Shown: in pieces, positions 5,905 to 23,343 of the stretch
How the letters are laid out: each line of letters begins with the position of its first letter
How positions within the stretch are numbered: position 1 is the stretch's first letter
From: Asticcacaulis sp.
GTDB taxonomy: Bacteria; Pseudomonadota; Alphaproteobacteria; Caulobacterales; Caulobacteraceae
Assembly (NCBI RefSeq): GCF_027484505.1
Contig: NZ_JAIXSV010000159.1
Coordinates: 1-32,317, forward strand
DNA: 32,317 nt
Direction: 5' to 3'
Translations under genes and position numbers: made by a program
The notes under the pieces: generated by a model
Databases searched by the model: none
The model's input: only the letters and a program-made list of their open reading frames with translations
What the model was told of the DNA's origin: nothing

Positions 5905-6017
5905 CGTCCACCTGTCATAGATACCGTACATGGTCCGCCGGTTGTGAACACGCATCTCCAGAGCTTTTAACGCCGCCGCGCGCCACAACCGCCAAAAAAC
6001 TGTCAAACAGGCTTTTG

Positions 6018-6035
6018 ATGACAGGCTGATGACAC
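6018..6035 (-). promoter_or_regulatory. PhoB-box-like site upstream of the sigma/fecR operon
   Basis: Read on the minus strand the site is GTGTCAT-CAGC-CTGTCAT: two heptamers in direct repeat with an 11-bp period, as in the Pho box (CTGTCAT, 4-bp spacer, CTGTCAT or CTGTCAC). The heptamers match at 13 of 14 positions, but the spacer is less AT-rich than the consensus. It points toward the sigma factor gene. Recognition is by consensus only. Confidence 0.5.
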
Positions 6036-6062
6036 GAGCACACCCGACCAACGTTCGGTGAA

Positions 6063-6080
6063 ACGTCATAAATCTATCAC
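6063..6080 (+). promoter_or_regulatory. PhoB-box-like site upstream of the first TonB receptor
   Basis: The site ACGTCAT-AAAT-CTATCAC matches the E. coli Pho box consensus at 15 of 18 positions, including the AAAT spacer. It lies 48 bp before the receptor ATG and points toward it. Nearly the same sequence stands before the third receptor (20305-20322). Confidence 0.5.
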
Positions 6081-6128
6081 GCCGCCTGACTATCAAGCCG
6101 GTGGGGATGTGAGTGAAGGCATTTTTGG

Positions 6129-9567: not shown

Positions 9568-12360
9568 TTAGTACGTATATTTCAGCGTCAGCAGCGTCGT
9601 CGAACCGGAGTCCACGATGTCGTTGATCGCCAGGCTGTTCTTGCCGACGTGCGCCCAGTAGGAATAGTCCTTGAACAGGTTGGACACCGACAGGTCGAGC
9701 TTCAGACCCGTGCCGAAATCGTAACCGGCGTGCAGGTCGGTGCGCTTCACAGGACGGGTCCACAGTTCGAGACCGGCGACATCATTATAGGCAATGACCG
9801 CTTCGCCGGTATAGTTGTGGGTCAGGTCCACGGTCAGGCCCTTCCAGGCGTAGTTGACCTTCACATTGGCCAGATATTCCGGGGCGTTCTGGATCGGGTG
9901 CTTTTCACCCTTGCCGATATCGACCTCGGTCCACTGGCGGGTGAAGTTGGCACCGGCCCCGAAGCCCGACAGCCAGCCCGGCAGCATGGCGAGCTTCTGA
10001 TAGAGCTGGATTTCCAGACCCTTCACCGTGCCTTCGCCGCCATTGGTGGGGTGCGAAAGGCTGACGCGGTCATAGGTCTTGCCGTTATAGGTCAGGAGGT
10101 TGGTCGGGGTTTCACCCGTGTTCACCTGCGTCGAGCCGTTGTCGTACATATAGTCCGACAGCTTTTTGTAGTAGGCGCCGATCATGGCGTAGCCGCCTTC
10201 GGCGTTCGACCATTCGCCCGACAGGTCGAGGTTCCACGACTGCAACGGCTTGAGGTCCGGATTGCCCTGCACAATCGTCAGGCTCTTGTTGTCGCCTTCA
10301 CGGGTGGTCGTCTTGTTGCCCAGTTGCACCATTGCCGGGCGCATATAGGCACGCGTCAAGGAGGCGCGGTAAACGCCGCCGGTTTCCGGACGATAGTTGA
10401 CGAACAGGCTGGGCAGCCATTCGTTGTAATCGGTCGAATTGGACTCAAAGGTCTTTTTGGTGCTGTTCCAGTAGGTGTTCTTGATGTCCGTATGCTCAAA
10501 ACGCAGGCCCGGAATGACCTCCAGCGCACCGAAATCGTACTTGCCGGTGACGTAGGCGGCGGAGACGTTTTCATCGCCCTTCAGCGTGTTGCCGTTCATA
10601 TATTCCGGATCGGCCAGAGCCGTCGCCATCGGGAAGTAGGTGTAGAAGATTTCGAACAGGCGGTCCTGATTCACCTTCGGGGCGCGGATATTGTAGAGGC
10701 CCGGATAGATCGAGTCGAAATAGTCGGTGGCCAGACCGACATCGGCCCACTTCACCCCGGCCTTTTGCATCACATTGGCCAGATGATTATTGGTATAGTC
10801 ACGGTTGATCACGCGGCGATGGCTGGCGACGTATTTCAGGCCGGTCTTGATATAGGCAAGGTTGCCGCCGTCAAAATCGTACTGCGCATCAAACTTCAGG
10901 CCTGCCTTTTCCTGACCCGAAAACTGCTGCGTCAACTGCCCGGCGCGACGCGCCAGAAGCGTGGTCGAGGCGTTGTTGATCTGGGTTTGCTGCGTGGCAT
11001 TGAGCATCGGGATCGGATAGCCGTCGCTGTTATAGGCGATGAACATACCAGCATAGGCCACGGGCTGACCGGCCAGAGGCCCCTTGTTGTAATCATCGGA
11101 CTGGTTGTTGCGCATCGAGGCTTCGATGTGGTTCGGACGGTCATTATCGCCTTCCGAATAGAAGACCGAGGGCGACAGGGTCCAGTTACCAACGCGCTTG
11201 ACCGCGCCCAGACTCAGGGTGCCGAGATCGGCCTGTTCCGGGTTGGTTTCGTACCAGGCGCGCACCGACGAATTGGTAACGCCGGTCAGGTCGAACAGAC
11301 CCGGCGTGGTCGCGTTTTCGACATAGACCTTGCTGTTGACGAACTGCGCCAGAGTCGAGTTCTGGTGCGTTTCCGCGAAAGCATACGAGCCGCGCAGATA
11401 GATATCCAGCGTGTCATCCACGCGCCAGTCGGCCGAGAAGTTGCCGCCGTAACGCTCGGTAAAGCCCGTCGATACGCCGGTGTTCAGGCCCGTCTGGGCG
11501 AGGTTGGCTTCCTTGTCGTAACCCGTCGGGTTCTGGAAGTTGCCGCTGGCGTCTTTCACCGCGTGCAGATACCCCCAGTTGCCGTCCTGCTGCGCCGTCA
11601 TAATGCCGGCGATCATCGAGTTGGCATAGTTGCGCTTGTCATAGAAGGCGCTGCCGTAGAAGCCGAACTGCTTGTTGGCCCCAAAGCGACGGGCGTATTC
11701 GGCGCTGACGCCGCCACCCAGACCATCCTCACCGTAATCGCGCGCGCGGCTCTCGACGCGGCCCGACACGGCCACAGACATGTAGCCGTCCTTGAAGCCA
11801 AAGGCCGACGGCGTGCGGAAATCAACCGTGCCGCCGATGGCGTCGCCGTCCATTTCGGCGGTCGAGTTCTTGTTGACCACGATGGTCTTCAGGCCGGACG
11901 GCGGCAGCAGGCTGAGCTGAACCTGACGCGAATAGGGCATACCCTGCGCGACATTGACGCCGTTGATCAGGGCGAGGGTAAATTCGGTGTTCATGCCACG
12001 CACGCCGACGAACATGCCTTCCCCGCGCGAGGCCCCGTCCACGCCGCCGAAGAAGGAGTTGCCGGTGTTGGTGACGGTGACGCCCGGCAGCAGGGCCAGG
12101 GCTTCGGCGACATTGTGCACGGCGGTGTGTTCAAGGTCTTCGGCCGACATCACGCTGATGGTGTTGGCGCTTTTCATCTGGGCCGAGGTGGCCGTCGAAC
12201 GGTTGGCATAGATGACCACTTCGGTCACATTGCCATTGTCCTTGGCCTTGGCCTCTTCATTGGCCTTGGTCGCCTCTTCGGCTTGCACGGCGGTTGCCGC
12301 CAGTCCGAGGCTCAGGCTCATGGCCGAAGCCATCAGCATAAGTTGGGTGGAAAGTTTCAT
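9568..12360 (-). CDS. TonB-dependent outer-membrane receptor without STN domain
   Basis: I chose the ATG at 12358-12360, giving 930 residues, because AGGGGA lies 7 bases upstream and a clear signal peptide follows (MKLSTQLMLMASAMSLSLG, cleaved near AVQA-EE). The mature protein starts with an acidic/lysine-rich linker and a TonB-box-like TEVVIYAN, then the plug (NVAEALALLPGVTVTNTG, EMDGDAIGGTVDFRTP) and a barrel ending in LTLKYTY. No STN domain is present, so it imports but should not signal to a FecR. It is a paralogue of the receptor at 6129: plug segments and the C-terminal YSYWAHVGK-SLA-DI-DSG stretch align closely. The two genes converge, so a simple tandem duplication is not the whole story. 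The ligand is unknown. It lies 101 bp downstream of doxX on the same strand. Confidence 0.93.
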   Translation of the reverse strand: MKLSTQLMLMASAMSLSLGLAATAVQAEEATKANEEAKAKDNGNVTEVVIYANRSTATSAQMKSANTISVMSAEDLEHTAVHNVAEALALLPGVTVTNTGNSFFGGVDGASRGEGMFVGVRGMNTEFTLALINGVNVAQGMPYSRQVQLSLLPPSGLKTIVVNKNSTAEMDGDAIGGTVDFRTPSAFGFKDGYMSVAVSGRVESRARDYGEDGLGGGVSAEYARRFGANKQFGFYGSAFYDKRNYANSMIAGIMTAQQDGNWGYLHAVKDASGNFQNPTGYDKEANLAQTGLNTGVSTGFTERYGGNFSADWRVDDTLDIYLRGSYAFAETHQNSTLAQFVNSKVYVENATTPGLFDLTGVTNSSVRAWYETNPEQADLGTLSLGAVKRVGNWTLSPSVFYSEGDNDRPNHIEASMRNNQSDDYNKGPLAGQPVAYAGMFIAYNSDGYPIPMLNATQQTQINNASTTLLARRAGQLTQQFSGQEKAGLKFDAQYDFDGGNLAYIKTGLKYVASHRRVINRDYTNNHLANVMQKAGVKWADVGLATDYFDSIYPGLYNIRAPKVNQDRLFEIFYTYFPMATALADPEYMNGNTLKGDENVSAAYVTGKYDFGALEVIPGLRFEHTDIKNTYWNSTKKTFESNSTDYNEWLPSLFVNYRPETGGVYRASLTRAYMRPAMVQLGNKTTTREGDNKSLTIVQGNPDLKPLQSWNLDLSGEWSNAEGGYAMIGAYYKKLSDYMYDNGSTQVNTGETPTNLLTYNGKTYDRVSLSHPTNGGEGTVKGLEIQLYQKLAMLPGWLSGFGAGANFTRQWTEVDIGKGEKHPIQNAPEYLANVKVNYAWKGLTVDLTHNYTGEAVIAYNDVAGLELWTRPVKRTDLHAGYDFGTGLKLDLSVSNLFKDYSYWAHVGKNSLAINDIVDSGSTTLLTLKYTY

Positions 12361-12380
12361 GCCAGTATCCCCTAAAGGCT

Positions 12381-12401
12381 GAGGGCATACAGCACGCCCT
12401 C
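12381..12401 (-). other. Small hairpin in the leader of the second TonB receptor
   Basis: GAGGGC (12381-12386) and GCCCTC (12396-12401) form a 6-bp stem with a 9-base loop, about 20 bases upstream of the receptor ATG. It could be an RNA stability or translation-control element, or the remnant of a doxX terminator. There is no T-run after it, so a terminator is not supported. Confidence 0.25.
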
Positions 12402-12461
12402 TCAAGCCAAGGGACGCCGTTCCTGACGCGACGCGCCGAAACTTAATGAAAACTTCACAAA

Positions 12462-12902
12462 CTAAATCAGCCCCAGCCGCCGATCGAGGCTGAAGGCTCC
12501 GCCGCCACGCCCGATCAGATAGATCAGCAGGCCGGCCCAGCTCAGATGCGTCGGCCAGGCATCGGGATAGACGAAGATTTCAATAACCGCCGTCATGCCG
12601 AGAAAGGCCAGCGCCGAATAACGGGTAAACAGGCCCAGCACCAGCAACACCGAAAACAGGTGTTCGGAGACGGTGGCCGTCACCGCAGCGGCGTGCGGTG
12701 GGATCAGCGGCAGGGCGTATTCCTGCTCAAACAGCACATAGGTGCCATCGGTGATGTGGAACAAGCCATCAACCTTGGTGCGCGCCGAGCTGAAGAAGAT
12801 GGCCGCCACGCCGAAGCGCGCGATCAGGGCGATGACGTCTTCCGGCAGCTTGGCCATAAGTTGGGCGGGCGGATTGATCCAGTCGGTCAGCTTGCGGGTC
12901 AT
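12462..12902 (-). CDS. DoxX family membrane protein of the bufferin-1 operon
   Basis: This is a 146-residue protein with four hydrophobic helices. It has the DoxX features of an early Arg in the first helix ([22 protein letters not shown]), a conserved [22 protein letters not shown] segment and a final helix ending in [10 protein letters not shown]. The ATG at 12900-12902 overlaps the bufC stop in an ATGA, so the reading depends on translational coupling; no independent ribosome-binding site is visible. DoxX proteins commonly accompany DUF692/DUF2063 gene sets (for example GigT-like members of gold-induced operons) and are thought to act in membrane redox or metal stress, but the exact role is not established. 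It is the last gene of the left operon; the right operon has no doxX. Confidence 0.85.
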
Positions 12903-13654
12903 AGGGGGTCGCTTTCGGTTGAGAGTTGCAGACAAGTGAGGCCCAGCACATGACTGAACAGGGCCGTAAGGTCGGTCGTGGGGTCGCAGGTCAGGGCCAC
13001 CTCCGCCGCCCCGGACAGGGTGCCGCCGTCGGCACAGACGCTGAGAAAGGCCGCCATATCGGCGTCAAGGCGACGCACTTCGACACCTTCGCCCACCCGA
13101 CGCACCAGCAGGGTTTCCGACTCAGGCCGTCGCTCCAGCCCCTCGCCCTCACCCGTCAACAGCGCGTCCCAGACGCTCAGCAGTGTGGTGTCAAATTGGA
13201 TCAGCCGCGCCGCCGGGATCAGGCGCGCGCGGGCGTGGCTGAGGGCTTCGGGCGACAGGTCGGCAAACACCTCGGCAGATGTTGCCACTCCATCCGCCGC
13301 ATTCAGCACGCTCAAACGCAGATGGTCGAGCCGGGCCAGATCCGGCAGCCAGTCCATGTCGGCCAGCGCATCCTGCGCCGCCAGCCAATCGGCAAACCCG
13401 TCACCGTAATCATGCAGCATCGGATCGGCCGGGTAATGGTCGCGCGCAAAGGCCGCGGCCACCTGACGGAAATTGTCTGAACCCAGCGCCGCCACCACGG
13501 CCGGAAAAGCGGCCTCAAGCGCCTCGACCAGAGCCGACGCGATGGTATTGCGATAAACGGCCACGATGGCTAAGTCGGGCGTTTGCACCCACGCCGCCAG
13601 CGCCTCCGGATCACCCGTAAGCGCTTCGGCAAAGGCCTGATGAAAGGCGCTCAT
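12899..13654 (-). CDS. bufC: BufC-like bufferin maturation partner (DUF2063 N-terminal domain)
   Basis: The 251-residue protein starts with a DUF2063/HvfC-BufC N-terminal helical domain (about 4-95) with [20 protein letters not shown], then [24 protein letters not shown] more variable C-terminal part carries the [20 protein letters not shown] element seen in these partners (about residues 191-210). In the characterised systems this protein binds the RiPP precursor and the DUF692 maturase as a recognition partner. It overlaps bufB upstream by ATGA (13651-13654) and doxX downstream by ATGA, so the four-gene order bufA1-bufB-bufC-doxX is translationally linked. The two DUF2063 proteins in this window are divergent, consistent with each serving its own precursor. 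Confidence 0.87.
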
Positions 13655-14475
13655 GCGGCCACCTCCAGATGCAGCCGCGCCTGCGCCCGTTCACGCTCGG
13701 CGATCAGTTCGACATAGGCAGGCACCTCACCGTCCCGTTCGATCAGGACCGGGCGCGGCCCCCACAGATCAAGCGCGGCGTCCAGCAACGCCCATACGCG
13801 CTCATCGACGGGGCGATCGTGGCTGTCGATCAGCAGTGCCGCGCCGCGCACCGGGTCTTGGCTGTGCCCGGCCAGATGAATCTCCCCCACGGCCTGCGCG
13901 GGGAGCGCCTGTAACCACGCAAGCGGGTCGCTGCCGATATTGCGCGCGCTGACGAAGACATTGTTGAGATCAACCAGCAGGCCGCAGCCGGTGCGCTTAA
14001 CCAGTTCGCTCAGGAACTCGGCCTCTTCATAGTCGTGGCCACGCAGGTTCAGATAATGGCTGGGGTTTTCGATCAGCAGAGCCCGCCCCAGAGCCGTTTG
14101 CGCCGCGTCTATGCGTTCACAAATGCGCTGCAATTCCACTGAGGTGCGCAGGACCGGCAGCAGGTCCGGCACGCTGTGGCCCTCAAAGCGCGACCATGCC
14201 AGATGCTCGGACACCACAAAGGGCGCAAAGCGGTCGATCAGGGCACGAAAGCGCTTCAGATGGGGCTGATCCAGCGGGTCGGGACCGCCCAGAGACAGCC
14301 CCACCCCATGCAGGGACAGAGGATGCGCCGCGCGCACCCGCTCAAGAGCGGCCAGTCGTGGACCACCTTCGACCATGACATTTTCGGGGTGAACCTCAAA
14401 CCACAGGCCGGGGCGGCGGTCGCCCGTCGCCTCCGTATAGTGTTGCGGCTTCAAGCCCAGCCCCGCGCCGATCAT
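13651..14475 (-). CDS. bufB: MNIO (DUF692) multinuclear iron enzyme, bufferin-1 maturase
   Basis: The 274-residue TIM-barrel protein has the iron ligands of the MNIO family in order: LHGVGLSLG (His56), SEHLAW (Glu90-His91), IENPS (Glu136-Asn137), VDLNNVFVSARN (Asp169, Asn171, Asn172), EIHLAGHS (His200, His204), IDSHD (Asp217, His219) and ERDGEVP (Glu246). These enzymes use a two- or three-iron cluster and oxygen to modify cysteines in a ribosomal peptide; BufB of Caulobacter converts bufferin cysteines to thiooxazoles (established family knowledge). The substrate here should be the DUF2282-type bufferin encoded 4 bp upstream. It overlaps bufC by 4 bp. A second MNIO enzyme lies at 15290. Confidence 0.92.
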   Translation of the reverse strand: MIGAGLGLKPQHYTEATGDRRPGLWFEVHPENVMVEGGPRLAALERVRAAHPLSLHGVGLSLGGPDPLDQPHLKRFRALIDRFAPFVVSEHLAWSRFEGHSVPDLLPVLRTSVELQRICERIDAAQTALGRALLIENPSHYLNLRGHDYEEAEFLSELVKRTGCGLLVDLNNVFVSARNIGSDPLAWLQALPAQAVGEIHLAGHSQDPVRGAALLIDSHDRPVDERVWALLDAALDLWGPRPVLIERDGEVPAYVELIAERERAQARLHLEVAA

Positions 14476-14479
14476 TGTC

Positions 14480-14776
14480 TCAAGCCTTCGGAGTCAAAGA
14501 GCCATTGCCCTTGGGCGTCTTGATGGTGACGCAGGTGCCCTTATCAACCAGCTTGAAGGCCTTGCCGTCGTAATCGACCTTGGAACTGCCGGCGCAGCTG
14601 GTGCCCGGACCGGCCTTGCAGTCGTTTTGCCCGGCCTTGGCGATGCCATAGCAGGCTTCCTTGGCCGCCGGGGCCTTGGCGGGCTTTTGGGTATCGGCGG
14701 CGGCGGTACCCGCAGCCAGAGACGAGGCCAGAGACAGGGCAGCGGCGATGGCCAGACCGGAACGGGAAACAGACAT
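14480..14776 (-). CDS. bufA1: Bufferin-1 precursor (BufA1, DUF2282-type), exported Cys-containing RiPP
   Basis: This 98-residue precursor has a Sec signal peptide (1 to about 27, cleaved near AAA-D). Its core has four cysteines in the DUF2282 pattern: EACYG (Cys42), QNDCKAG (Cys53), TSCAGSS (Cys61) and KGTCVTI (Cys82). BufA1-type bufferins are modified on cysteine in the cytoplasm by BufB/BufC, exported, and sequester copper in the periplasm; that is known for the family and inferred here. The ATG at 14774-14776 has a strong AAGGAG eight bases upstream. The gene begins about 38 bases after a predicted ECF-type start site (promoter 14821-14848) and is followed after 4 bp by bufB. All four conserved cysteines are present, so nothing indicates decay. 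Confidence 0.92.
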
Positions 14777-14820
14777 GGGGTTCTCCTTGCGAGACGACGC
14801 CTCATCGCGTCTGGCAGGAG

Positions 14821-14848
14821 GTACGCAAGGCCCCGCACAAAGGTTACA
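14821..14848 (-). promoter_or_regulatory. ECF-type promoter for the bufferin-1 operon
   Basis: On the minus strand the site reads TGTAACC (-35, at 14848-14842), a 16-bp spacer, then CGTAC (-10, at 14825-14821), followed by about 44 bases to the bufA1 ATG. The same elements with the same spacing stand in the opposite direction at 14882-14909. The AAC-containing -35 and CGT-containing -10 are typical of ECF sigma factors, and resemble sigma-F targets in Caulobacter. Confidence 0.72.
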
Positions 14849-14881
14849 GAGGGGGCGGGACAAAAAATAAATGAGAAGCTG

Positions 14882-14909
14882 TGTAACCTCATCCCCGAAG
14901 GCCGCGTAC
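14882..14909 (+). promoter_or_regulatory. ECF-type promoter for the bufferin-2/sigma/NrsF operon
   Basis: TGTAACC (14882-14888), a 16-bp spacer and CGTAC (14905-14909) match the divergent promoter at 14821-14848 element for element, while the spacers differ. The -10 lies 46 bases before the bufA2 ATG. Because the sigma factor is encoded in this operon, the promoter should give positive autoregulation. Confidence 0.72.
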
Positions 14910-14955
14910 TCCCTGATGCCACACCGGCACTGCACCTATTTTGAGAGAGCCCATC

Positions 14956-15240
14956 ATGATCACTGTGAAAACCGGCGCCATCATCGCGTCCGCTGCCGCC
15001 CTTATGGCCGCCGCCAGCTTCGCTACCGCCGCCACCGCCCCTGCGGGCAGCAAGGGTGCCGCCGTGGCCGCCGACGACATCGTCCATTGCTATGGCATCA
15101 ACACCTGCAAGGGCACGGCCGACTGCGCCACCACGACGCACGAATGCAAGGGTCAGAACGTCTGCAAGGGTCATGGGTTCAAGGCCATCAAGGCCAAGGA
15201 ATGCCTGGCTCAGGGTGGCGTGATCGGCGATATCGGTTAA
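14956..15240 (+). CDS. bufA2: Bufferin-2 precursor (BufA2-type), exported six-Cys RiPP
   Basis: The 94-residue precursor starts at the ATG at 14956 (GAGAGAG seven bases upstream). It has a signal peptide (1 to about 28) and a core with six cysteines: HCYGINTCKG (Cys45, Cys51), ADCATT (Cys57), HECKG (Cys64), NVCKG (Cys70) and KECLAQGG (Cys83). The repeating CKG units and the final CxxxGG pattern match the second bufferin class found with DUF692/DUF2063 genes. It should be modified by the MNIO enzyme at 15290 and then exported to bind metal; the chemistry of this class is less well known than for BufA1. A 9-bp-stem hairpin lies between this gene and bufB. Cysteine number and spacing differ clearly from the four-Cys precursor divergent to it. 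Confidence 0.9.
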   Translation: MITVKTGAIIASAAALMAAASFATAATAPAGSKGAAVAADDIVHCYGINTCKGTADCATTTHECKGQNVCKGHGFKAIKAKECLAQGGVIGDIG

Positions 15241-15252
15241 GTATGCCCTGCG

Positions 15253-15273
15253 GGGCCGGTGTCGCACCGGCCC
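15253..15273 (+). terminator. Intra-operon hairpin between bufA2 and bufB (attenuator or stabiliser)
   Basis: GGGCCGGTG (15253-15261) and CACCGGCCC (15265-15273) form a perfect 9-bp GC-rich stem with a TCG loop, 12 bases after the bufA2 stop. It is followed by TTCTCC, only a weak T-tract. A partial terminator or a 3'-end stabiliser would let the precursor be made in excess over its maturase. The left operon has only 4 bp at this junction and no such hairpin. Confidence 0.6.
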
Positions 15274-15289
15274 TTCTCCGGACCTGTCC

Positions 15290-16123
15290 ATGCCCACTTC
15301 CCTTGCCCCCTTTCCCGGCTTTGGCCTCGGCCTCAGACCGCCCCATTACGAAGCCATTCTGGCCTCACCGCCCTCGATCGACTTTTTCGAGATCATCTCG
15401 GAAAATTTCATGATCGACGGCGGGCGGCCCCTACATGTGCTGGATCGTGTGCGGGCCGACTATCCCATAGCGATGCACGGCGTCTCCATGTCGCTGGGCT
15501 CACCGGATGGACCGGGACCGGACTATCTAAGGCGGCTGCAAACCCTGATTTCGCGCGTGGACCCCCTGTGGGTGTCCGATCATCTGTGCTGGACCGGCAT
15601 CAATGGTCGCAACAGCCACGACCTTCTGCCCCTGCCCCTGACCGAAGAGGCGATGGCTACCGTCTGCCGCCATATCGACCGCGTGCAGAGTTTCCTTCAG
15701 CGGCCGCTGCTGATCGAAAATCCCTCGACCTACGTTACCTTTGCCGAAGATGCCTACACGGAATGGGGCTTTCTGACAGAGCTATGCCGTCGCACGGGCT
15801 GCTACCTGCTGCTGGATATCAACAATGTCTTCGTCAGCGCCCACAATCACGGCTTTTCGGCGCAAGCCTATCTGGACGGCCTGCCGCTGGAGCGCGTGCG
15901 TCAGGTGCATCTGGCCGGCCATTCGCAGGGCGACACCCTGTTGATCGACACCCACGATGCGCCCGTCCCGGACGGGGTGTGGGGGCTGTGGGCTGAGGTC
16001 GCCACGTGCCTTAGCCACGCCGCCGTGATGATCGAGCGCGACGACGAGATTCCACCCCTTTATGAGCTGTTGAGCGAACTCGATACCGCCCGCCGCCTTG
16101 CCTCAGTTGGGGTGTGCGTATGA
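15290..16123 (+). CDS. bufB: MNIO (DUF692) multinuclear iron enzyme, bufferin-2 maturase
   Basis: The 277-residue MNIO enzyme carries the complete metal-ligand set: AMHGVSMSLG (His63), SDHLCW (Asp97-His98, Asp in place of the Glu in the other copy), IENPSTY (Glu143-Asn144), LDINNVFVSAHNHG (Asp176, Asn178, Asn179), QVHLAGHS (His207, His211), IDTHD (Asp220, His222) and ERDDEIP (Glu249). It should oxidatively modify cysteines of the six-Cys precursor upstream. The ATG at 15290 has only a weak GGA upstream, so translation may be low relative to bufA2. The stop overlaps the next ATG (ATGA at 16120). It differs substantially from the MNIO at 13651, as expected if each is matched to its own precursor. 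Confidence 0.92.
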   Translation: MPTSLAPFPGFGLGLRPPHYEAILASPPSIDFFEIISENFMIDGGRPLHVLDRVRADYPIAMHGVSMSLGSPDGPGPDYLRRLQTLISRVDPLWVSDHLCWTGINGRNSHDLLPLPLTEEAMATVCRHIDRVQSFLQRPLLIENPSTYVTFAEDAYTEWGFLTELCRRTGCYLLLDINNVFVSAHNHGFSAQAYLDGLPLERVRQVHLAGHSQGDTLLIDTHDAPVPDGVWGLWAEVATCLSHAAVMIERDDEIPPLYELLSELDTARRLASVGVCV

Positions 16124-16866
16124 GTCTGGTGGCTACCCAACAGGCGTTTCTGGGTCAGATTCTGGCCAACCCCGCCCCCACGCTAAGCGAAGGGATGCGT
16201 GTCTATCACCACGCCTATCGTGCGCGGCTGTCGGGGGCAATGGCGGAAACCTATGCGCAGGTCTGGGCGTGGCTGGGTGATGACGCCTTCCATTCAGCAG
16301 TCCTCGCCTATATCGAACAGCATCCGTCCAGCCAGTGGTCACTGGACGATTATGGGCAGGACTTTGCGGCCTTTCTGGCCGGACGTTTTCCCGATGATCC
16401 CGAAATCGCCGAGCTGGCGTGGCTCGATGCCGCCCTGCGACAGGCCTTCGCCGCCGAAGATGCGGACCTGCTCGATGGGACGGCCCTGATGCAGGTCGGC
16501 GACTGGGAGACGGTGCGCTTTGTCCTCAATCCGGCCCTGCGTCACCGCCCCATCCGCTCCAATGCCCCGGCCCTGTGGCGCGCCCTGTCGAAAGACAAGA
16601 CACCGCCGGAGGTGCTCTATTTCGAAGCGACGAGTGGTCTGTGCGTGTGGAAGACAGCGCTCGCTTCGCGCTTTCGCACGCTGGAGGCCGACGAATATGC
16701 CCTCATCTGCGCGCTGGCGGTCGGTCAGGGTTTTGCCGCGGCTTGCGAAACCCTGACGCGCGACGCCCCCGACCGAGACCTCACGGCGCAGATCGGCGCG
16801 TGGCTGGGTCAATGGCTGGCCGAAGGATTGGTCACCGGCCTTGACGCGACAGAGACAAGCTCATGA
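16120..16866 (+). CDS. bufC: BufC-like bufferin maturation partner (DUF2063 N-terminal domain)
   Basis: I chose the ATG at 16120 (ATGA overlap with bufB); a GTG two codons earlier is also possible. The 248-residue protein has the DUF2063 helical domain (about 5-90) with MRVYHHAYRARLSGAMAETY, WAWLGDDAF and HPSSQWSLDDYGQDFAAFL. The C-terminal half has a VLYFEATSGLCVWKTALASRF strand pair, then a helical end. It is the presumed substrate-binding partner of the MNIO enzyme upstream. Its stop overlaps the start of the sigma factor gene in another ATGA, so sigma production is coupled to expression of the biosynthetic genes. Confidence 0.87.
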   Translation: MSLVATQQAFLGQILANPAPTLSEGMRVYHHAYRARLSGAMAETYAQVWAWLGDDAFHSAVLAYIEQHPSSQWSLDDYGQDFAAFLAGRFPDDPEIAELAWLDAALRQAFAAEDADLLDGTALMQVGDWETVRFVLNPALRHRPIRSNAPALWRALSKDKTPPEVLYFEATSGLCVWKTALASRFRTLEADEYALICALAVGQGFAAACETLTRDAPDRDLTAQIGAWLGQWLAEGLVTGLDATETSS

Positions 16867-17429
16867 GCCTCAGTCAACCCGATCTGTGGCAGCAGCAGAT
16901 GCGCGCCGCCCAACGCGGCGATGCGGAGGCCTATCGCGCCCTGCTCACCGCCCTGCGCCCGTGGCTTTCGGCCTATTTTCGCCGTCGCCTGCAATCGCCC
17001 GATACCGAAGACCTGACCCAGATCACGCTGGTCGCGGTGCATGAAAAGCGCCACACCTATGACCCGACGGCCCCCTTCATGCCGTGGATCGCCGCCGTGG
17101 CGCGGCACAAGCTGATCGACCACGTCCGAAAATACGGGCGCTACGTACATGTTGAGCTGAACGAAATGAACGAACCGGTGGATGAGGCCTCTCTGGGCCT
17201 GCCCGCCGCCATAGCGCGGCGTGACGTTCAGGTACTGTTGTCGCAACTGCCCGTCGATCAGGCACGCGTCATCCGCCTGCACAAGGTCGAAGAACTCAGC
17301 CTGGAGGACGTGTCGCGTTTGACCGGCAAATCGGTGGCCGCCGTCAAGGTCATCGTCCACAGAGGATTGAAAAAGTTACGGGACAGCGTCGGCGTGCCCC
17401 GGAAAGTGTACGAAGATGAGCAACCATAA
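16863..17429 (+). CDS. sigF: ECF sigma factor, SigF-like, of the bufferin locus
   Basis: The 188-residue sigma factor has region 2 (about 18-90, with TEDLTQITLVAVHEKRHTYD and FMPWIAAVARHKLIDHVRK) and region 4 (about 125-173, with LPVDQARVIRLHKVEELSLE and the helix-turn-helix SVAAVKVIVHRGLKKLRDS). The HKxIDHxRK segment and the NrsF partner immediately downstream match Caulobacter SigF, which responds to chromate and cadmium stress and controls DUF692/DUF2063/DUF2282 genes (established for that species). The likely targets here are the two TGTAACC-N16-CGTAC promoters at 14821 and 14882. It overlaps bufC by 4 bp and nrsF by 14 bp, so it is co-transcribed with the genes it should activate. Confidence 0.9.
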   Translation: MSLSQPDLWQQQMRAAQRGDAEAYRALLTALRPWLSAYFRRRLQSPDTEDLTQITLVAVHEKRHTYDPTAPFMPWIAAVARHKLIDHVRKYGRYVHVELNEMNEPVDEASLGLPAAIARRDVQVLLSQLPVDQARVIRLHKVEELSLEDVSRLTGKSVAAVKVIVHRGLKKLRDSVGVPRKVYEDEQP

Positions 17430-18084
17430 CACCCCCGACCTGATCGAGTCCTTAAGCCAGTCCGTCAACCCGGTTGCCCCGATGGGCCGCCGTGGCCTGT
17501 GGCTGTGGGTGGGCTTAAGCCTGCTGGCGGGCACCGCCTTTGTCCTGACGGTTTACGGCGCGCGCCCCGAAATGCGTCTGCTGCTCAGTGAAGGGCGCGT
17601 GGCGGATAACCTGTCGGCCTATGCCAAGACGGCCTTTTTTATCGGCCTTGCCGCGCTGGCCGTCTGGCAGGTGCAGGCCACGGCGCGACCGGAAGGGGCA
17701 CTCAACCGCGTGCAAACCGGGCTTTTGGGGCTGGCGGTCATTGCCCTGACCACCCTGACCGGTATGGATGTCGCATTGAGTGGCCTGCCCGCAGCTATGA
17801 CAGGCCTGTCGGACGGCGCGCCGGTGTGTTTCCTGACCATACTGGTCGGCGGCATGGCGGGGCTGGGCTTGGGCTGGGCCGTATGGCTGCGCCACGCCGC
17901 GCCCGGCAATCCCGCGCTGTTTGGGGCACTCAGCGCCTTTGCCGCCTCGGCCCTGATGACGGTGGCCTACACGCTGCATTGCGATCACGACGCCCCGGCC
18001 TATCTGCTGCTGATCTATCTGGCCCCCAATCTGGTGGCGGCCCTGATCGGCAGCGTCGCCGGGCGCTGGCTGTTCCGATGGTAA
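17416..18084 (+). CDS. nrsF: NrsF-like membrane anti-sigma factor (DUF1109), copy 1
   Basis: This is a 222-residue polytopic protein with six predicted helices. A short cytoplasmic N-terminus (PDLIESLSQSVNPV) is followed by the first helix and the GARPEM loop. Two cysteines sit in the membrane-associated motifs PVCFLTIL (Cys138) and YTLHCDHDAP (Cys189). In Caulobacter, NrsF sequesters SigF at the inner membrane, and two conserved cysteines are needed for the response to metals; the positions here fit that pattern. It overlaps the sigma gene by 14 bp and the second DUF1109 gene by 7 bp. The HCxHDxP segment keeps both a cysteine and histidine near the periplasmic face, which would suit metal sensing (inference). 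Confidence 0.88.
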   Translation: MSNHNTPDLIESLSQSVNPVAPMGRRGLWLWVGLSLLAGTAFVLTVYGARPEMRLLLSEGRVADNLSAYAKTAFFIGLAALAVWQVQATARPEGALNRVQTGLLGLAVIALTTLTGMDVALSGLPAAMTGLSDGAPVCFLTILVGGMAGLGLGWAVWLRHAAPGNPALFGALSAFAASALMTVAYTLHCDHDAPAYLLLIYLAPNLVAALIGSVAGRWLFRW

Positions 18085-18728
18085 GGCCGCCACACGACCT
18101 GATCGAGCGGCTGAGCGAAGACCTGCGCCCCGTCAAACCGCTGAGCGCCGGGCGGCTTTTGGGCCTCGCCCTCGTCTTCACCGCCATGACTCTGTTTTGG
18201 GTGGTGGGCTTTTATGGGATGCGCCCGGAATTTACCGATATTGAGGGGGCTTTGCTTCAGGCGCGGTTTGCCCTGCTCAAACCGCTGTTGTGGGGCTGGG
18301 CCGGACTGTCGGCGCTGCACGCCGCTAACGCCCTGTCACGCCCCGAAGGCCGCTGTCACTGGAGCGACCTCGCCCCGCTGCCCGTCATCCTGTTGAGCCA
18401 CGGCCTTGCCCTGTGGTGGCAAGTGGCAAGCTCAGGGTGGGACGGCGCCACAGCAGGCGGCTTCGGCGGCGCGGCCCTGTGCGGCCTGACCATCCTCCTC
18501 AGCGCGTGGGTGGCCATGCGGCTGGTCACGCCAATGTGGCTCAGCCGCACCGCCTCGTCTCAGCCCCGTCTGCTGCGACTGTGCGCGGCGCTGGGCTTTG
18601 CCGGGTTGGCCGCCGCCGCCTATGCCCTGCATTGCCCGATGGATCAGCCGCTCTATACCCTGTGCGTCTACTTGCCCGCTATCGGCATGGTTTTGCTGGT
18701 CGAGGGCGGGCCGTGGTCAAAAGGTTGA
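18078..18728 (+). CDS. NrsF-like membrane anti-sigma factor (DUF1109), tandem copy 2
   Basis: This 216-residue paralogue of the preceding gene aligns along its whole length: HDLIERLSEDLRPVKPLS at the N-terminus, FYGMRPEF, ALSRPEG, AALCGLTILLS (Cys135) and YALHCPMDQPLY (Cys186). Both signature cysteines are kept, and it has extra ones (Cys93, Cys169, Cys196). The His-Cys motif lacks the second histidine-containing HD of copy 1 (HCPMDQP against HCDHDAP). The ATG at 18078 overlaps the copy 1 stop (ATGGTAA). It may be a second anti-sigma factor for the same sigma, a sensor with another specificity, or a co-subunit. A longer reading frame upstream is out of register with copy 1 and was not used. 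Confidence 0.85.
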   Translation: MVRPPHDLIERLSEDLRPVKPLSAGRLLGLALVFTAMTLFWVVGFYGMRPEFTDIEGALLQARFALLKPLLWGWAGLSALHAANALSRPEGRCHWSDLAPLPVILLSHGLALWWQVASSGWDGATAGGFGGAALCGLTILLSAWVAMRLVTPMWLSRTASSQPRLLRLCAALGFAGLAAAAYALHCPMDQPLYTLCVYLPAIGMVLLVEGGPWSKG

Positions 18729-18743
18729 ACCTCAAAGCCACAG

Positions 18744-18802
18744 TGACGGTTTAATGCCCGCCAAATGGCATGGCGCGCGAGGCCTATAAAAAAACCGTCA
18801 CA
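18744..18802. other. Inverted repeat between the bufferin operon and the fecI operon
   Basis: GTGACGGTTT (18744-18753) and AAACCGTCAC (18793-18802) are exact reverse complements separated by 39 bp. The right arm extends to CCGTCAC-ATTT, which looks like half a Pho box, 26 bases before the fecI ATG and just after a TATAAA sequence. It may be an operator for the fecI/fecR unit; the long loop makes a terminator unlikely. Confidence 0.35.
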
Positions 18803-18827
18803 TTTGCCCACTAGAGCGGAGGCTGTC

Positions 18828-19346
18828 ATGTCGCCCGCCCCTTTGCCCTTCCTGTGGATTGCCGATGAGCGTCAGCGCCTGTCGCGCTTTGTCGCGGGTA
18901 AGGTGCGCGACCATGGCCTGTGCGAGGACGTGGTGCAGGAAACGCTGGCGCGACTGGTGGCCTATGTGCGCGACCACAAGGTGGACAATGTCGCCGCACT
19001 GGCGCGACGCATCGCGCTCAACCTGATCAGCGACCATTTCAGAGCCGAGCGTTTGCGTCCCACCGAGGCCATCGAGGACACTCTGGCCTGCGACAACCCC
19101 TTGCCGGAGCAGGTTCTGATGCACAAGCAGCGTCTCGAAGCCTTCACCGAAGCCCTTAAGGACATGCCGCCGTTGCGTCGCGAGGTTCTGATCCGGCGGC
19201 GATTGCATGGCGAAACCTGCAGTGATATTGCCCGGAGTCTGAACCTGTCGGTGGACGCCGTCGAAAAACACATAACGCGCGGCCTGCGGCAATTGCATGA
19301 GACGCTCGCCCGGGCTGAAAAGAAAAGAAAACGCTATGACGCCTGA
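18828..19346 (+). CDS. ECF sigma factor, FecI-like
   Basis: The 172-residue sigma factor has region 2 (about 12-77, with CEDVVQETLARLVAYVRDH and ALARRIALNLISDHFRAERLR) and region 4 (about 104-160, with PPLRREVLIRRRLHGETCSD and SVDAVEKHITRGLRQLHETL). The ATG at 18828 has GGAGGC upstream and fits the family; a reading frame 21 codons longer lacks a site. It overlaps the fecR gene by 11 bp and is followed by an STN-bearing receptor, forming a standard sigma/FecR/receptor surface-signalling set, all on one strand. A probable PhoB half-site precedes it. It is distinct from the sigma factor at 16863. Confidence 0.88.
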   Translation: MSPAPLPFLWIADERQRLSRFVAGKVRDHGLCEDVVQETLARLVAYVRDHKVDNVAALARRIALNLISDHFRAERLRPTEAIEDTLACDNPLPEQVLMHKQRLEAFTEALKDMPPLRREVLIRRRLHGETCSDIARSLNLSVDAVEKHITRGLRQLHETLARAEKKRKRYDA

Positions 19347-20289
19347 GGGTGCGGACACCGACGATCTTCTGTGGAACACCGCCGCCCGTTATGCCGATCA
19401 AACCCTGACACAGGGTGAAACCGACGAAGGGCTGTACTGGCGGCGCTCCGATACGCGCCATGAGGCTGCCTATCAGCGCCTGCTGCGGATTGCGCAGGAC
19501 CGCGCCCTGCATGATGCCCTGACGCAGTTTGATCAGGAATCGTCCGGCGCGCCCGTGTCCCGCCGCGCCCTGTGGCAAAGGCCGGTTGTCTGGGGCGGGG
19601 CGGGTCTGGCGCTGGCCGCGTGCCTCAGCCTGTTTCTCCTGCCGCCCTTCATGGCCGAGTGGACGACGCCATTGTCCGTTTACAGCACAAGGCCCGGCGA
19701 GGTGCGTGAACTGACGCTCGCCGACGGCAGCCATGTAACGCTGAACGGCGGGTCGCGTCTGGAAGCGCGCCTGACCGGCTACCGCCGCCACGTGGCGCTC
19801 AAAAGCGGTGAGGCCTATTTCGACGTGGCGCACGACGCCTCGCGCCCGTTCTATGTCGGGCTTAGCGGCGGCAAGGTGCGTGTGCTTGGCACCGAATTTA
19901 ACCTCAGCTATCTGCCGAACGGCGTCGAACTGGACGTCTATGAGGGCAAGGTGCGCCTGACCGGTGATGAGCGCCGCTATGGCGATTTCACGCGCGGCAT
20001 GCGCGCCAGTCTCGAAAGCGGCCACGTCAAACCCTTAAGCCGCTTCGATCCGCAGGGCGACGACTGGCGCCGCGGCTGGATCGAGCCCGACCACTGGCCG
20101 CTGGAGCGCGTCGTGCAGGCGCTCAGCCGCCAATCGGGCCTGAGCATCCGCTTTGCCGACGAGGCTCTGAAACAAAAGCCGATTGTGGGGCGCATCCGCC
20201 TCGATGCCCCCGAAGCGCAACTGGAGGCGCTGGCGCTGGTGCACGGCTTTACCGTCGAAAAGCAGGGCGACGTCATCACGCTGCGCTGA
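19336..20289 (+). CDS. FecR-type anti-sigma/signal-transfer protein
   Basis: The 317-residue product has a cytoplasmic N-terminal FecR/DUF4880-like region (1-80, with DLLWNTAARYADQTLTQGE), one membrane helix (about 83-105) and a periplasmic FecR domain with ELTLADGSHVTLNGGSRLE, GEAYFDVAHDASRPFYV and KVRVLGTEFNLSY. A C-terminal STN-like part follows (WPLERVVQALSRQSGLSIRF). The ATG at 19336 lies inside the end of the sigma gene (11-bp overlap) after a polypurine stretch. It should transmit the state of the receptor encoded 129 bp downstream (20419) to the sigma factor upstream. All FecR landmarks are present and no damage is visible. Confidence 0.9.
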   Translation: MTPEGADTDDLLWNTAARYADQTLTQGETDEGLYWRRSDTRHEAAYQRLLRIAQDRALHDALTQFDQESSGAPVSRRALWQRPVVWGGAGLALAACLSLFLLPPFMAEWTTPLSVYSTRPGEVRELTLADGSHVTLNGGSRLEARLTGYRRHVALKSGEAYFDVAHDASRPFYVGLSGGKVRVLGTEFNLSYLPNGVELDVYEGKVRLTGDERRYGDFTRGMRASLESGHVKPLSRFDPQGDDWRRGWIEPDHWPLERVVQALSRQSGLSIRFADEALKQKPIVGRIRLDAPEAQLEALALVHGFTVEKQGDVITLR

Positions 20290-20304
20290 GGCCGCGACCT
20301 GACT

Positions 20305-20322
20305 CCGTCATAAATATTTCAC
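20305..20322 (+). promoter_or_regulatory. PhoB-box-like site upstream of the third TonB receptor
   Basis: CCGTCAT-AAAT-ATTTCAC matches the E. coli Pho box consensus at 15 of 18 positions, with the AT-rich spacer intact. It lies 96 bp before the receptor start and 15 bp after the fecR stop. It shares 15 of 17 positions (CGTCATAAATnTnTCAC) with the site before the first receptor (6063-6080). Confidence 0.5.
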
Positions 20323-20418
20323 CAAAAACCCTGTCCGGTCCGCCCCGTCTTTTTCCGTCCTTTTCCCAGAGCCGCCAGCGGGGATGGGCCCGCGCACCGG
20401 CCAAATGGGGATAAGACC

Positions 20419-23343
20419 GTGACCTTCCATCGACTTCTTTGCCTGTCGGCCTCGCTGACGGCTCTCACCTTAGGGGGCCTGACCCCGCACATCGCGCAGG
20501 CGCAGACTGTAGCCTCGCGCGCCATGGATATCGACATCAAGGCGGGCTCGCTCGATACCGCCCTGGTGCAGCTGTCGCGCCTGACCGGTGTGCAGATCGT
20601 CGCCGACCCCGCTCTGACCAGCGGCAAACGCACCGCCGCCCTCAGTGGCCGCCTCAGCCTTGACCAGGCCCTGACCCGTCTCCTACACGGTCAGTCGCTC
20701 GCCTATACGATGAAGGGTGAGGTCGTGGTGATCCGCGCCGGTCAGGTGCAGACCTCGGCCCCTGTCGCCCGCACGGCCACGGCCGTCGCTCCGGCCGCCA
20801 GCGCCGAAGCCCCCGTCAGGGACGAGCCCGTCGAAGAGGTGGTCGTCACCAGCTTCCGTAACTCCCTGTCGAAGGCGCTCAACGAAAAGCGCCGCGCCAC
20901 CAATGTCGTTGACGTCATCAATGCCGAAGATATCGGCAAGTTTCCCGCTAACAATATCGCCGAAGCGCTTCAGCGCGTACCGGGCATCTCCATCACGCGC
21001 GACCGTGGCGAAGGCCTGTTCGTGCGCGTGCGCGGCCTTGGCCCCAATTTCCAGAACGTGACCATTGATGGCCGCAGCGCCGCTGTGAACGAAAACGTGC
21101 GCGATTCCGGGCAATCGGGCCGTCAGTTCCGCTTCGATACTCTGGCCACCGAAATGGTCTCCGGCGTTGAGGTCATCAAGTCGCCTCTGGCCGCCATGGA
21201 CGAAGGGGCGATTGGCGGTACGGTCAATCTGCGTACCTTCAAGCCGCTCGACTTCAAACGCCCGACCTCGGCCATCAGCCTGACCTCGACCTATGTCGAA
21301 CTGGCCAAAAAGATTGATCCTAAAATGTCGGGCCTTTGGAGCTGGAATAACGAGGACCGCACGTTGGGTGTGCTCGTGTCGGCCAATTACGGCATCCGCA
21401 GCCTGCGCTCGGACCGCATCACGGGCGTTAGCTGGACGACGGGCAAGATCGATGTCAATGGCGACGGTGTGACGGACACCACCTATGTGCCAAGCGCCGT
21501 GCGCCCGACGCTGGAAACCGAGCGCCGCGAACGCTGGGGCGTCACTGCCGCCGTGCAGTGGAAGCCGCGCGAAGGCACCGAAATCTCGCTCTCTCACCTC
21601 TATTCGCACCTCGACGACTTCTATGACGAGCTGACCTATTCGGCGGATTTCGTCCTCACCAGCCTCGTCGCCAATACGGGTCAGGTCCGCGATGGCGCGC
21701 TGGTCGGTGGGCGCACCACCTCGACCAGCACCCAGATCGGGCGTGAAATCGACTATCTGGTCCACGACAACCAGCTGACCGATCTGAGCGTCAAACACAA
21801 ACTGGGGGCGTGGGATTTGAGCGGCAGCCTCTATGTGGCGCGCGCCTATTCCAATACCGACAAGCCGATCACCCGTACCCGCGTGCTGGGTTCATCCGGC
21901 GGACTCGACTTCTCACTGCCGCAGGTAGGTGACGGCGTGCCGACCCTGACCTTCCTGACGCGCAGCCTGAGCGACCCGATCCTGCCCTTCCGCCGTCTGG
22001 AATGGCGCGTCAACGACTCGCTGGACGAAGAAAACGCCGTGCAGTTTGACGCCAGGCGTGAGCTGAGCTTCGGCCCGTTCAGCCAGATTTCAGCCGGCGT
22101 GAAGCTCCGCGACCGGTCGCGTCGCTATAACCGCCGCGACATCAACTTTACCCGCGATCTGAGCGGCAAGACGATCGGTGGCAACAACACCCTGTTCGGC
22201 CGCGACTATTACGACACCATCGCCGTCGATAACTTCCTGGGCGAGGTTGGGGCCACTCTGCCCAAGACGTGGCTGAGCCCGAACCGTGATAAGTTCATGG
22301 CCATCCTCGATATGTCGGCCATCGCCAATACGGCGCCGGCGCGCGGCGACCTGCGCAACTCCTACTATGTGGCGGAAAAGATCTCGGCGGCCTACACGGC
22401 GGCGGATATCGACACGCAACTGTTCGGACGCACCCTGCGCGGCGAAGTGGGCGTGCGCTACGCCGAAACCGAGCAGGTGTCGCAAGGCCACGCCGACACG
22501 GGCACGGCCGCCCTGCCCGTGCGCTTTGAAAAGACCTATCGTGACACCCTGCCGAGCCTCAACCTCGTCTATGAGGTGACGGATCGCGTGCAGGTCCACG
22601 CGGCTGCGGCCAAGGTCATCACCCGTCCGTCTCTGGCCGATCTGTCGCCGCGACTGACGCTCAACTCATCGGGGACCGTCTTCACCGCCGTCGGTGGCAA
22701 CCCGCTGCTCGATCCGTTCGAAGCCAACCAATATGATCTGACGGCGGAGTGGTATTTTGCGCCGGGTTCGGCCCTGATCGGTGGCCTGTTCTACAAGGAC
22801 ATCACCACCTTTGTTTATAACCAGAACACCACCATTGCTATCGACGGTCAGAATTACACCCTGACAGCTCCGGTCAATGGCGGTAATGCCTGGGTGAAGG
22901 GCATGGAACTGGCGTGGCAGCAGAACTTCCGTGACCTGCCCGCACCGTGGGACGGTCTGGGTGCGTTGACCAGCTATACGCGCACCGACTCAGAGGCGGC
23001 CTATTCGGCCACCCTCACCGACAAGATGCAGAACGTGGCCAGGAACAGCTACAACCTGACGGTCTATTACGAAAAGGACCGTCTGGGGGCGCGTCTGTCC
23101 TATGCCTGGGTGGATGACGTGCTGGCCTCGGTCGGCACCGGCGGTCTCGCCAGCCTGAACGACAAGGCCTATGGGTCGCTGGATGGCAATTTCAGCTACA
23201 AGATCGACGATCAGTTCACGCTGGTCATCGAGGCGCAGAACCTGACCAACGAAGCCCAGTGGCAGTTCACCCAGAACGGCCAGTTCGGCGGCTACACCTT
23301 CAATGGCCGCAGCGTCTCGGTGGGCGTGCGTGGTAAATTTTAA
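20419..23343 (+). CDS. TonB-dependent outer-membrane receptor with STN domain, linked to alkaline phosphatase
   Basis: The 974-residue receptor starts with GTG at 20419 (GGGGAT seven bases upstream). A signal peptide (1 to about 28, AQA-QT) leads to an STN domain (about 36-107, DIDIKAGSLDTALVQLSRL), an Ala/Pro linker, the TonB box VEEVVVTSF (138-146) and a plug with NNIAEALQRVPGISITRD, VRVRGLGPNFQNVTIDGR and DEGAIGGTVNLRTFKPLDF. The barrel ends in FNGRSVSVGVRGKF. It belongs to the Xanthomonas/Caulobacter receptor type but is only distantly related to the other two receptors here. The STN domain should signal through the FecR at 19336. The alkaline phosphatase downstream suggests that the ligand is phosphorylated (inference). 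Confidence 0.93.
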   Translation: MTFHRLLCLSASLTALTLGGLTPHIAQAQTVASRAMDIDIKAGSLDTALVQLSRLTGVQIVADPALTSGKRTAALSGRLSLDQALTRLLHGQSLAYTMKGEVVVIRAGQVQTSAPVARTATAVAPAASAEAPVRDEPVEEVVVTSFRNSLSKALNEKRRATNVVDVINAEDIGKFPANNIAEALQRVPGISITRDRGEGLFVRVRGLGPNFQNVTIDGRSAAVNENVRDSGQSGRQFRFDTLATEMVSGVEVIKSPLAAMDEGAIGGTVNLRTFKPLDFKRPTSAISLTSTYVELAKKIDPKMSGLWSWNNEDRTLGVLVSANYGIRSLRSDRITGVSWTTGKIDVNGDGVTDTTYVPSAVRPTLETERRERWGVTAAVQWKPREGTEISLSHLYSHLDDFYDELTYSADFVLTSLVANTGQVRDGALVGGRTTSTSTQIGREIDYLVHDNQLTDLSVKHKLGAWDLSGSLYVARAYSNTDKPITRTRVLGSSGGLDFSLPQVGDGVPTLTFLTRSLSDPILPFRRLEWRVNDSLDEENAVQFDARRELSFGPFSQISAGVKLRDRSRRYNRRDINFTRDLSGKTIGGNNTLFGRDYYDTIAVDNFLGEVGATLPKTWLSPNRDKFMAILDMSAIANTAPARGDLRNSYYVAEKISAAYTAADIDTQLFGRTLRGEVGVRYAETEQVSQGHADTGTAALPVRFEKTYRDTLPSLNLVYEVTDRVQVHAAAAKVITRPSLADLSPRLTLNSSGTVFTAVGGNPLLDPFEANQYDLTAEWYFAPGSALIGGLFYKDITTFVYNQNTTIAIDGQNYTLTAPVNGGNAWVKGMELAWQQNFRDLPAPWDGLGALTSYTRTDSEAAYSATLTDKMQNVARNSYNLTVYYEKDRLGARLSYAWVDDVLASVGTGGLASLNDKAYGSLDGNFSYKIDDQFTLVIEAQNLTNEAQWQFTQNGQFGGYTFNGRSVSVGVRGKF

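Follow-up and report, generated by a model that had tools for sequence, protein, structure and literature searches.

Two bufferin operons, a SigF-type sigma factor gene and tandem NrsF genes in one divergent locus of Asticcacaulis

Introduction

Bufferins are a recently described and widespread class of copper-binding peptides; an MNIO enzyme and a DUF2063-type partner convert cysteines to thiooxazoles (PMC13097082, PMC13419390). The closest described counterpart of the locus studied here is that of Caulobacter crescentus (vibrioides), with CC2907-2905, CC3254-3257, sigF-nrsF and CC2748: two paralogous bufferin operons, one of them with doxX, and one extracytoplasmic function (ECF) sigma factor. 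SigF drives both operons, which are SigF-dependent under dichromate, and its element is GTAACC-N16-CGAA; NrsF represses the action of the sigma factor, and replacement of its conserved Cys131 and Cys181 raises expression of the regulon (PMC3511200). Under copper, sigF (by 2.2-4.7 log2), nrsF and the two bufferin operons are expressed more strongly, and a mutant in sigF shows copper sensitivity (PMC8224329). Here we analyse a 32,317-nucleotide stretch of Asticcacaulis sp. (RefSeq assembly GCF_027484505.1, contig NZ_JAIXSV010000159.1, positions 1 to 32,317; hereafter the window), in which positions 12462-18728 hold ten genes in two divergent bufferin operons together with a sigF-like gene and two nrsF-like genes.

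The locus shares with Caulobacter the GTAACC-N16 promoters and an NrsF with two conserved cysteines. The Caulobacter units have separate promoters, sigF-nrsF its own among them, and a single NrsF, whereas the window has one locus and two NrsF proteins. The Caulobacter system is known to respond to chromium, cadmium and copper (PMC3511200, PMC8224329). We consider it quite likely, from the promoter elements and by analogy with Caulobacter, that the locus is a self-contained SigF-type metal-stress regulon, the metal most probably being copper, with the targets that were found and their regulator in one divergent locus.

Results

The minus-strand Buf1 operon, bufA1-bufB1-bufC1-doxX, lies head to head with the plus-strand Buf2 operon, bufA2-bufB2-bufC2, which continues through an ECF sigma gene (here called sigF), nrsF1 and nrsF2. 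The 179-bp divergent region between bufA1 and bufA2 carries one GTAACC-N16-CGTA element on each strand, with the -35 ends 35 bp apart, and no further GTAACC-N16-CGTA site was found in the window. The -35 sequence and the spacing are identical to those of the Caulobacter element; the -10 sequence is one base off at both promoters. The features are as follows.

12462..12902, minus strand: doxX, final gene of the Buf1 operon, overlapping bufC1 by 4 bp (PF07681, E 1.1e-14)
12899..13654, minus strand: bufC1, DUF2063 (PME-type 1) partner (PF09836, E 5.2e-19)
13651..14475, minus strand: bufB1, MNIO with IERDG (NF050167 MNIO_BufB, 347.5 bits; PF05114, E 4e-94)
14480..14776, minus strand: bufA1, DUF2282-type Buf1 precursor of 98 amino acids with 4 Cys (PF10048, E 4.1e-23, 81.5 bits)
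14822..14847, minus strand (read 14847-14822): SigF-type promoter of the Buf1 operon, GTAACC-N16-CGTA
14883..14908, plus strand: SigF-type promoter of the Buf2-sigF-nrsF operon, GTAACC-N16-CGTA
14956..15240, plus strand: bufA2, Buf2 precursor of 94 amino acids with 6 Cys and three CK motifs (NF050166, 100.1 bits)
15252..15274, plus strand: intercistronic bufA2-bufB2 hairpin, 10-bp stem and 3-nt loop, no T run behind it
15290..16123, plus strand: bufB2, MNIO with IERDD (NF050167, 371.4 bits; PF05114, E 5e-105)
16120..16866, plus strand: bufC2, DUF2063 (PME-type 1) partner (PF09836, E 6e-21)
16863..17429, plus strand: sigF, ECF sigma factor (PF04542, PF08281); own SigF-type promoter not found
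17416..18084, plus strand: nrsF1, predicted anti-sigma (PF06532, E 7.8e-23), conserved Cys C138 and C189
18078..18728, plus strand: nrsF2, second predicted anti-sigma (PF06532, E 2.7e-15), both conserved Cys

A preliminary description of this DNA had listed ten genes of these families, and the Pfam and NCBIfam matches agree with its positions and strands, including a four-Cys DUF2282 precursor and a six-Cys precursor, each with an MNIO and a DUF2063 partner. Its start for nrsF2 was corrected to the ATG at 18078, because 18081 reads GTA, which is no start codon; nrsF2 thus overlaps nrsF1 by 7 bp. The sigma gene and two anti-sigma genes that it described as embedded are present, but the sigma gene is simply the fourth gene of the Buf2 operon, with the NrsF pair next. 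Almost every junction had been called an ATGA-type overlap, which is too strong: 4-bp overlaps occur at four of the eight within-operon junctions (bufC1/doxX, bufB1/bufC1, bufB2/bufC2 and bufC2/sigF), and the remainder are overlaps of 14 bp (sigF/nrsF1) and 7 bp (nrsF1/nrsF2) or gaps of 4 nt (bufA1-bufB1) and 49 nt (bufA2-bufB2). Absent from that description are the pair of SigF-type promoters between the operons and the bufA2-bufB2 hairpin.

The Buf1 operon thus contains a PF10048 precursor with four cysteines, an adjoining MNIO, a DUF2063 partner and DoxX; the Buf2 operon contains a match to the BufA2 model, six cysteines and an MNIO with Asp after the catalytic ERD. Profile cut-offs were 310 bits for NF050167, 60 bits for NF050166, 22.4 bits for PF10048 and 27.2 bits for PF09836. 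The last was passed by BufC1 (68.8 bits) and BufC2 (74.9 bits), which scored 44.1 and 28.1 against the 142 bits of the HvfC equivalog. The N termini of BufA1 and BufA2 look signal-peptide-like by eye. The genome (G000) is a 4.66-Mb draft of 369 contigs, 99.97% complete, and genome-wide searches returned bufB1 and bufB2 as its only MNIO genes and nrsF1 and nrsF2 as its only NrsF genes (PF06532, formerly DUF1109). The best named match, at 90% BufB2 identity, comes from an Asticcacaulis metagenome-assembled genome (MAG), whose 10,000-base contig is the same as the one in G129. The preliminary description had suggested a neighbourhood search for divergent loci with both precursor classes, and five further Asticcacaulis genomes were found to have the window layout; as no other MNIO or NrsF genes were found in the window's genome either, the layout is not due to chance.

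BufB was present in 19 of the 25 Asticcacaulis genomes, eight of which have two BufB genes as divergent neighbours. In six of these eight (G000, G042, G089, G099, G104 and G129), hereafter window-type, sigF-nrsF-nrsF follows bufC2. sigF stands directly 3' of bufC2 in all six, and no SigF-type element was found upstream of sigF in any of them, so induced sigF expression should come from the bufA2 promoter. Across the family, BufB occurs in 108 of 299 genomes and divergent neighbouring BufB pairs in ten, the eight of the genus plus G010 and G115; in the latter two sigF is located elsewhere, not behind bufC2. Placement of sigF inside a Buf2 operon was seen in the six window-type genomes only. A tree of the sigma factors grouped those of the window-type genomes in one clade (100/100), nested in a clade of 20 Asticcacaulis sigmas; of the other 14 members, all except L154 have a SigF-type element of their own. 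Five genomes of the genus have sigF-nrsF behind its own SigF-type element but no BufB match (L147-L151; G052, G109, G119, G133 and G014). A second, very distant SigF-NrsF clade of the genus (L043, L052, L153, L155 and L156) has CGAA elements; its sigF-nrsF is flanked by doxX and Buf1 units and lacks its own SigF-type element.

Conservation of the promoter element was assessed with the pattern GTAAC[CT]-N16-CG[TA]A from -250 to +60 of precursor starts, in a family-level set of 21 loci (the window and 20 stretches picked by MNIO, not by motif). The element was present at all 30 precursor units (18/18 Buf1 and 12/12 Buf2 starts), against a background of 133 matches in 3,245,330 positions of all 100 loci, true sites counted in. 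The 79 other named loci had it at 20 of 35 Buf1 and 26 of 76 Buf2 units, so that many bufferin genes, though not all, have a SigF-type element. The -10 sequence is CGTA at most Asticcacaulis sites; CGAA occurs in two other genera (L033, L039) and in the distant Asticcacaulis group mentioned above. The reading of both bufferin operons as one regulon, offered in the preliminary description, is well supported by the same SigF-type element at both promoters, by its retention in relatives and by the SigF dependence of both homologous Caulobacter operons.

Further SigF targets were sought in the genome. The exact pattern GTAACC-N16-CGTA gave four sites (one in the reversed control), namely the window pair and two that fall inside open reading frames (ORFs) and were set aside. 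A relaxed pattern gave seven sites against eight in the reversed control and was uninformative; one of its sites (L066, contig C334) lies directly ahead of a 69-codon ORF and is a weak lead. Caulobacter SigF also targets the sulfite oxidase-like YedY/MsrPQ unit, whereas the single YedY-like (PF00174) gene of the window's genome (contig C332) has no element in its 3.5-kb stretch and was dropped as a candidate.

The locus is flanked by two FecR/FecI/TonB-receptor sets and one more TonB receptor (window 4451-9194, 9568-12360 and 18828-23343). A TonB receptor begins about 100 bp downstream of doxX, and FecI, FecR and receptor genes follow nrsF2, a proximity that might join the locus to TonB-dependent uptake of a metal or metallophore. 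We regard this as highly improbable: these neighbours recur in only some close relatives and are missing from the G089 stretch at the cut-offs used, and no SigF-type GTAACC element was found ahead of the TonB/Fec neighbours within the window. The receptors were not kept across window-type loci and were rejected as locus members. Farther out, the window encodes a Fic/DOC protein with an N-terminal DUF4172 domain (2464-3573, minus strand) and an ORF whose match to the photolyase FAD-binding domain covers only domain positions 1-124 out of 203 (29568-30740, plus strand).

Tandem NrsF genes were present in six of the 24 NrsF-bearing genomes of the genus, exactly the six window-type ones, and not in the other 18. 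In a class-wide search (385 genomes, inferred to be Alphaproteobacteria, 80 of them with NrsF; at most seven candidates scored per genome), two adjacent copies were found in the window's own genome only. NrsF1 and NrsF2 each formed one clade (100/100), which we take as one event; a single tandem-duplication origin of the two was neither rejected nor shown (p-AU, approximately unbiased test, 0.419). Both pass the Pfam cut-off of PF06532, and both conserved cysteines are kept in 6/6 NrsF1 and 6/6 NrsF2 proteins. In all but one of 50 gene comparisons the ratio of non-synonymous to synonymous substitution rates (dN/dS) did not exceed 0.34, pointing to purifying selection; the fiftieth, doxX against L038, was discarded, the L038 contig ending inside doxX. 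Toward G104, BufA2 and SigF are the most constant proteins (99% identity), and variation is greatest in BufC1, the NrsFs and BufC2 (80-87%). From these sequence comparisons, sigF seems to have been relocated and NrsF doubled in a single event, and purifying selection seems to have kept the result. L067, letter-for-letter identical to L038, was left out of the promoter, hairpin and residue-after-ERD analyses and of the trees but counted among the 80 named loci; neither tree includes L074 (a fragment) or L143, and duplicate window rows were removed.

The second copy might instead have no role on SigF, as a paralogue that is decaying or has neofunctionalised. Toward G089, no protein of the locus has changed more than NrsF2 (53% identity); it also scores lower against the family (56.6 versus 81.4 bits for NrsF1), and the C-terminal RW present in most NrsF proteins is missing from it. 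Yet it is intact in 6/6 genomes, at a dN/dS of 0.13-0.34, with both cysteines in all six and the N-terminal DLIExL stretch kept in most, and we think loss of its role unlikely.

Each precursor has its own enzyme pair, as the preliminary description had noted: BufB1 and BufB2 are 45% identical, BufC1 and BufC2 29%, and the residue after ERD is Gly in BufB1 and Asp in BufB2. Residues aligning with the published essential ones (ERD, D-x-H and NN; PMC13097082, PMC13419390) are present in both enzymes, the matching of residue numbers being our own. Asp after ERD marks the MNIOs of Cys-Lys (Buf2) precursors, the residue being tied to substrate class (PMC13097082). It was found in 12/12 Buf2-linked but also in 6/18 Buf1-linked MNIOs of the family-level loci, and hence fits the classes but does not separate them alone; only the family-level loci are unbiased on this point, as the 80 named loci were fetched with patterns including IERDD. 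The captophorin/oxazolin systems (FonABC, HvfABC; PMC13097082, PMC13419390) likewise combine an MNIO with a PME-type 1 partner, which in those systems make thiooxazoles on cysteines of copper-binding precursor peptides. They differ in their EGKCG (Lys-Cys) precursors and in having Phe after the catalytic Asp, where BufB2 has Asp and BufB1 Gly.

The preliminary description had gone further and proposed two metallophores of different chemistry, specialised by metal or oxidation state, under the one sigma factor. The precursors do differ (four versus six cysteines, 34% identity, separate enzyme pairs), as does the residue tied to substrate class (PMC13097082). Against such specialisation, Buf1 alone chelates both Cu(I) and Cu(II), the two operons, with the same promoter elements, show no hint of being controlled differently, and nothing seen in the sequence points to different metals. 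In 23 of the 80 named loci, moreover, a Buf1 precursor shares its locus with Buf2 and only one MNIO, and 15 of these 23 genomes or records (five of the 15 being MAGs) have a single MNIO overall, which suggests that the two classes share one enzyme pair in those genomes. A Pfam check of seven such Buf1 calls gave DUF2282 in every case; several precursors with single MNIO pairs have already been mentioned (PMC12452194). We therefore consider two specialised chemistries improbable.

The Buf1 and Buf2 clusters surveyed in PMC12452194 have the same precursor-MNIO-DUF2063(-DoxX) cores of both kinds. Here sigF-nrsF belongs to the Buf2 transcription unit, while in several sphingomonad loci it lies directly ahead of a Buf2 unit; both arrangements are at odds with a statement of the survey, whose counting rule may file mixed loci under Buf1. 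Sphingomonadales loci, such as L072 of Sphingomonas lycopersici, also link Buf1, Buf2 and SigF/NrsF and have SigF-type elements, but their Buf1 lacks an MNIO of its own, sigF-nrsF is a separate unit between Buf1-doxX and Buf2, and there is one NrsF. Such an MNIO-less Buf1 unit beside sigF-nrsF and/or Buf2-MNIO-DUF2063 was seen in L072, L075, L079, L081, L083, L085, L094, L110, L114, L133 and others, many of them sphingomonad.

The hairpin lies in the 49-nt bufA2-bufB2 gap. Its z-score is -1.7 in the window and -1.0 to -2.5 in the other five window-type loci. GC-rich hairpins at this position were seen in many Buf2 units (L033-L146) and are absent from most Buf1-MNIO junctions. Over 80 stretches, the 60 nt after the bufA2 stop had a mean z of -2.97, with 42 below -3; the same threshold was passed by 0/111 MNIO-DUF2063 junctions, 3/25 Buf1-MNIO junctions and 3/100 random stretches, controls that are mostly coding. 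An intrinsic terminator was rejected: in only 8 of 81 hairpins do the 8 nt after the fold contain five or more T, which makes a stabiliser or partial block likelier. The hairpin may set the ratio of precursor to enzyme. Hairpin, stem-loop, terminator, attenuation or stoichiometry are not mentioned in the main text of PMC12452194, the only paper searched for the hairpin.

Discussion

We read the locus, as the best explanation, as a compact metal-stress switch that works by positive feedback and has two brakes in place of one. Thiooxazole chemistry, NrsF function, induction by copper and dependence on SigF are here carried over from homologues. In a resting cell, the predicted membrane proteins NrsF1 and NrsF2 would restrain the ECF sigma factor. 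Copper in excess, or another metal that reacts with thiols, would act on the NrsF cysteine pair and free the sigma factor to fire the two back-to-back promoters. The leftward output would be the Buf1 precursor, its MNIO/DUF2063 pair and DoxX, and the rightward output the Buf2 precursor, its own MNIO/DUF2063 pair, more sigma factor and two anti-sigmas on one transcript. In the cytoplasm, cysteines of both precursors would be modified, most likely to thiooxazoles; after export by Sec the peptides would buffer periplasmic copper. Because sigF rides on the bufA2 promoter, positive feedback would come with co-produced negative feedback, and the doubled NrsF is a probable counterweight to the positive loop. 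We infer the strength of the feedback and the role of the second NrsF from this gene arrangement.

Several points weigh against this reading. Under chromium or cadmium, Caulobacter sigF is not strongly autoregulated (PMC3511200), and the sigF of the window could have an internal promoter of another kind. A sigF gene lacking a SigF-type element also occurs in L033, L043, L052, L153, L154, L155 and L156, and since all but L154 lie outside the 20-member clade, the missing element is not unique to the window layout. The -10 sequence is CGTA instead of the Caulobacter CGAA. The NCBIfam NrsF equivalog NF042994 has a cut-off of 300 bits, which NrsF1 misses at 43 bits and to which NrsF2 has no hit. 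Relocation of sigF and doubling of NrsF coincide in one event only and do not form a correlation seen repeatedly. The genome is a draft of 369 contigs, and degenerate sites may have let some targets escape detection.

The internal promoter deserves separate weighing. If one inside bufC2 drove the sigma/NrsF cassette, strong feedback would be lost; Caulobacter sigF is driven by SigF plus a further unknown regulator (PMC3511200), and basal sigma factor is needed ahead of induction. On the other side stand the 4-bp ATGA overlap of bufC2 and sigF, their adjacency in all six window-type loci and the lack of a sigma-70-like site in 12200-19000, in a scan covering some promoter types but not all. To us a separate promoter seems rather unlikely, and we retain the self-feeding switch. 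More speculatively, and with some doubt, loss of its own promoter and entry into the bufA2 operon might have let sigF make a graded copper response self-amplifying or even bistable, the NrsF pair co-evolving into a two-subunit sensor-brake, either as a heteromer or as two brakes that differ in metal or thiol sensitivity.

The component parts are already known. New are a sigF without a SigF-type promoter of its own, placed in a Buf2 operon, and the tandem NrsF; no earlier description of either was found in a literature search that covered few subscription papers. As an arrangement, the packing of the whole circuit into one locus, with predicted self-feeding and a doubled brake, is new, and both bufferin classes are wired together here in a single 6.3-kb unit. 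The locus is a natural cassette for testing why two bufferins are kept and how NrsF senses metal. Within the genus, the six genomes with relocated sigF and doubled NrsF can be compared with the 18 NrsF-bearing genomes without them for feedback strength, and the bufA2 hairpin offers a testable idea of how the amounts of precursor and enzyme may be set apart.

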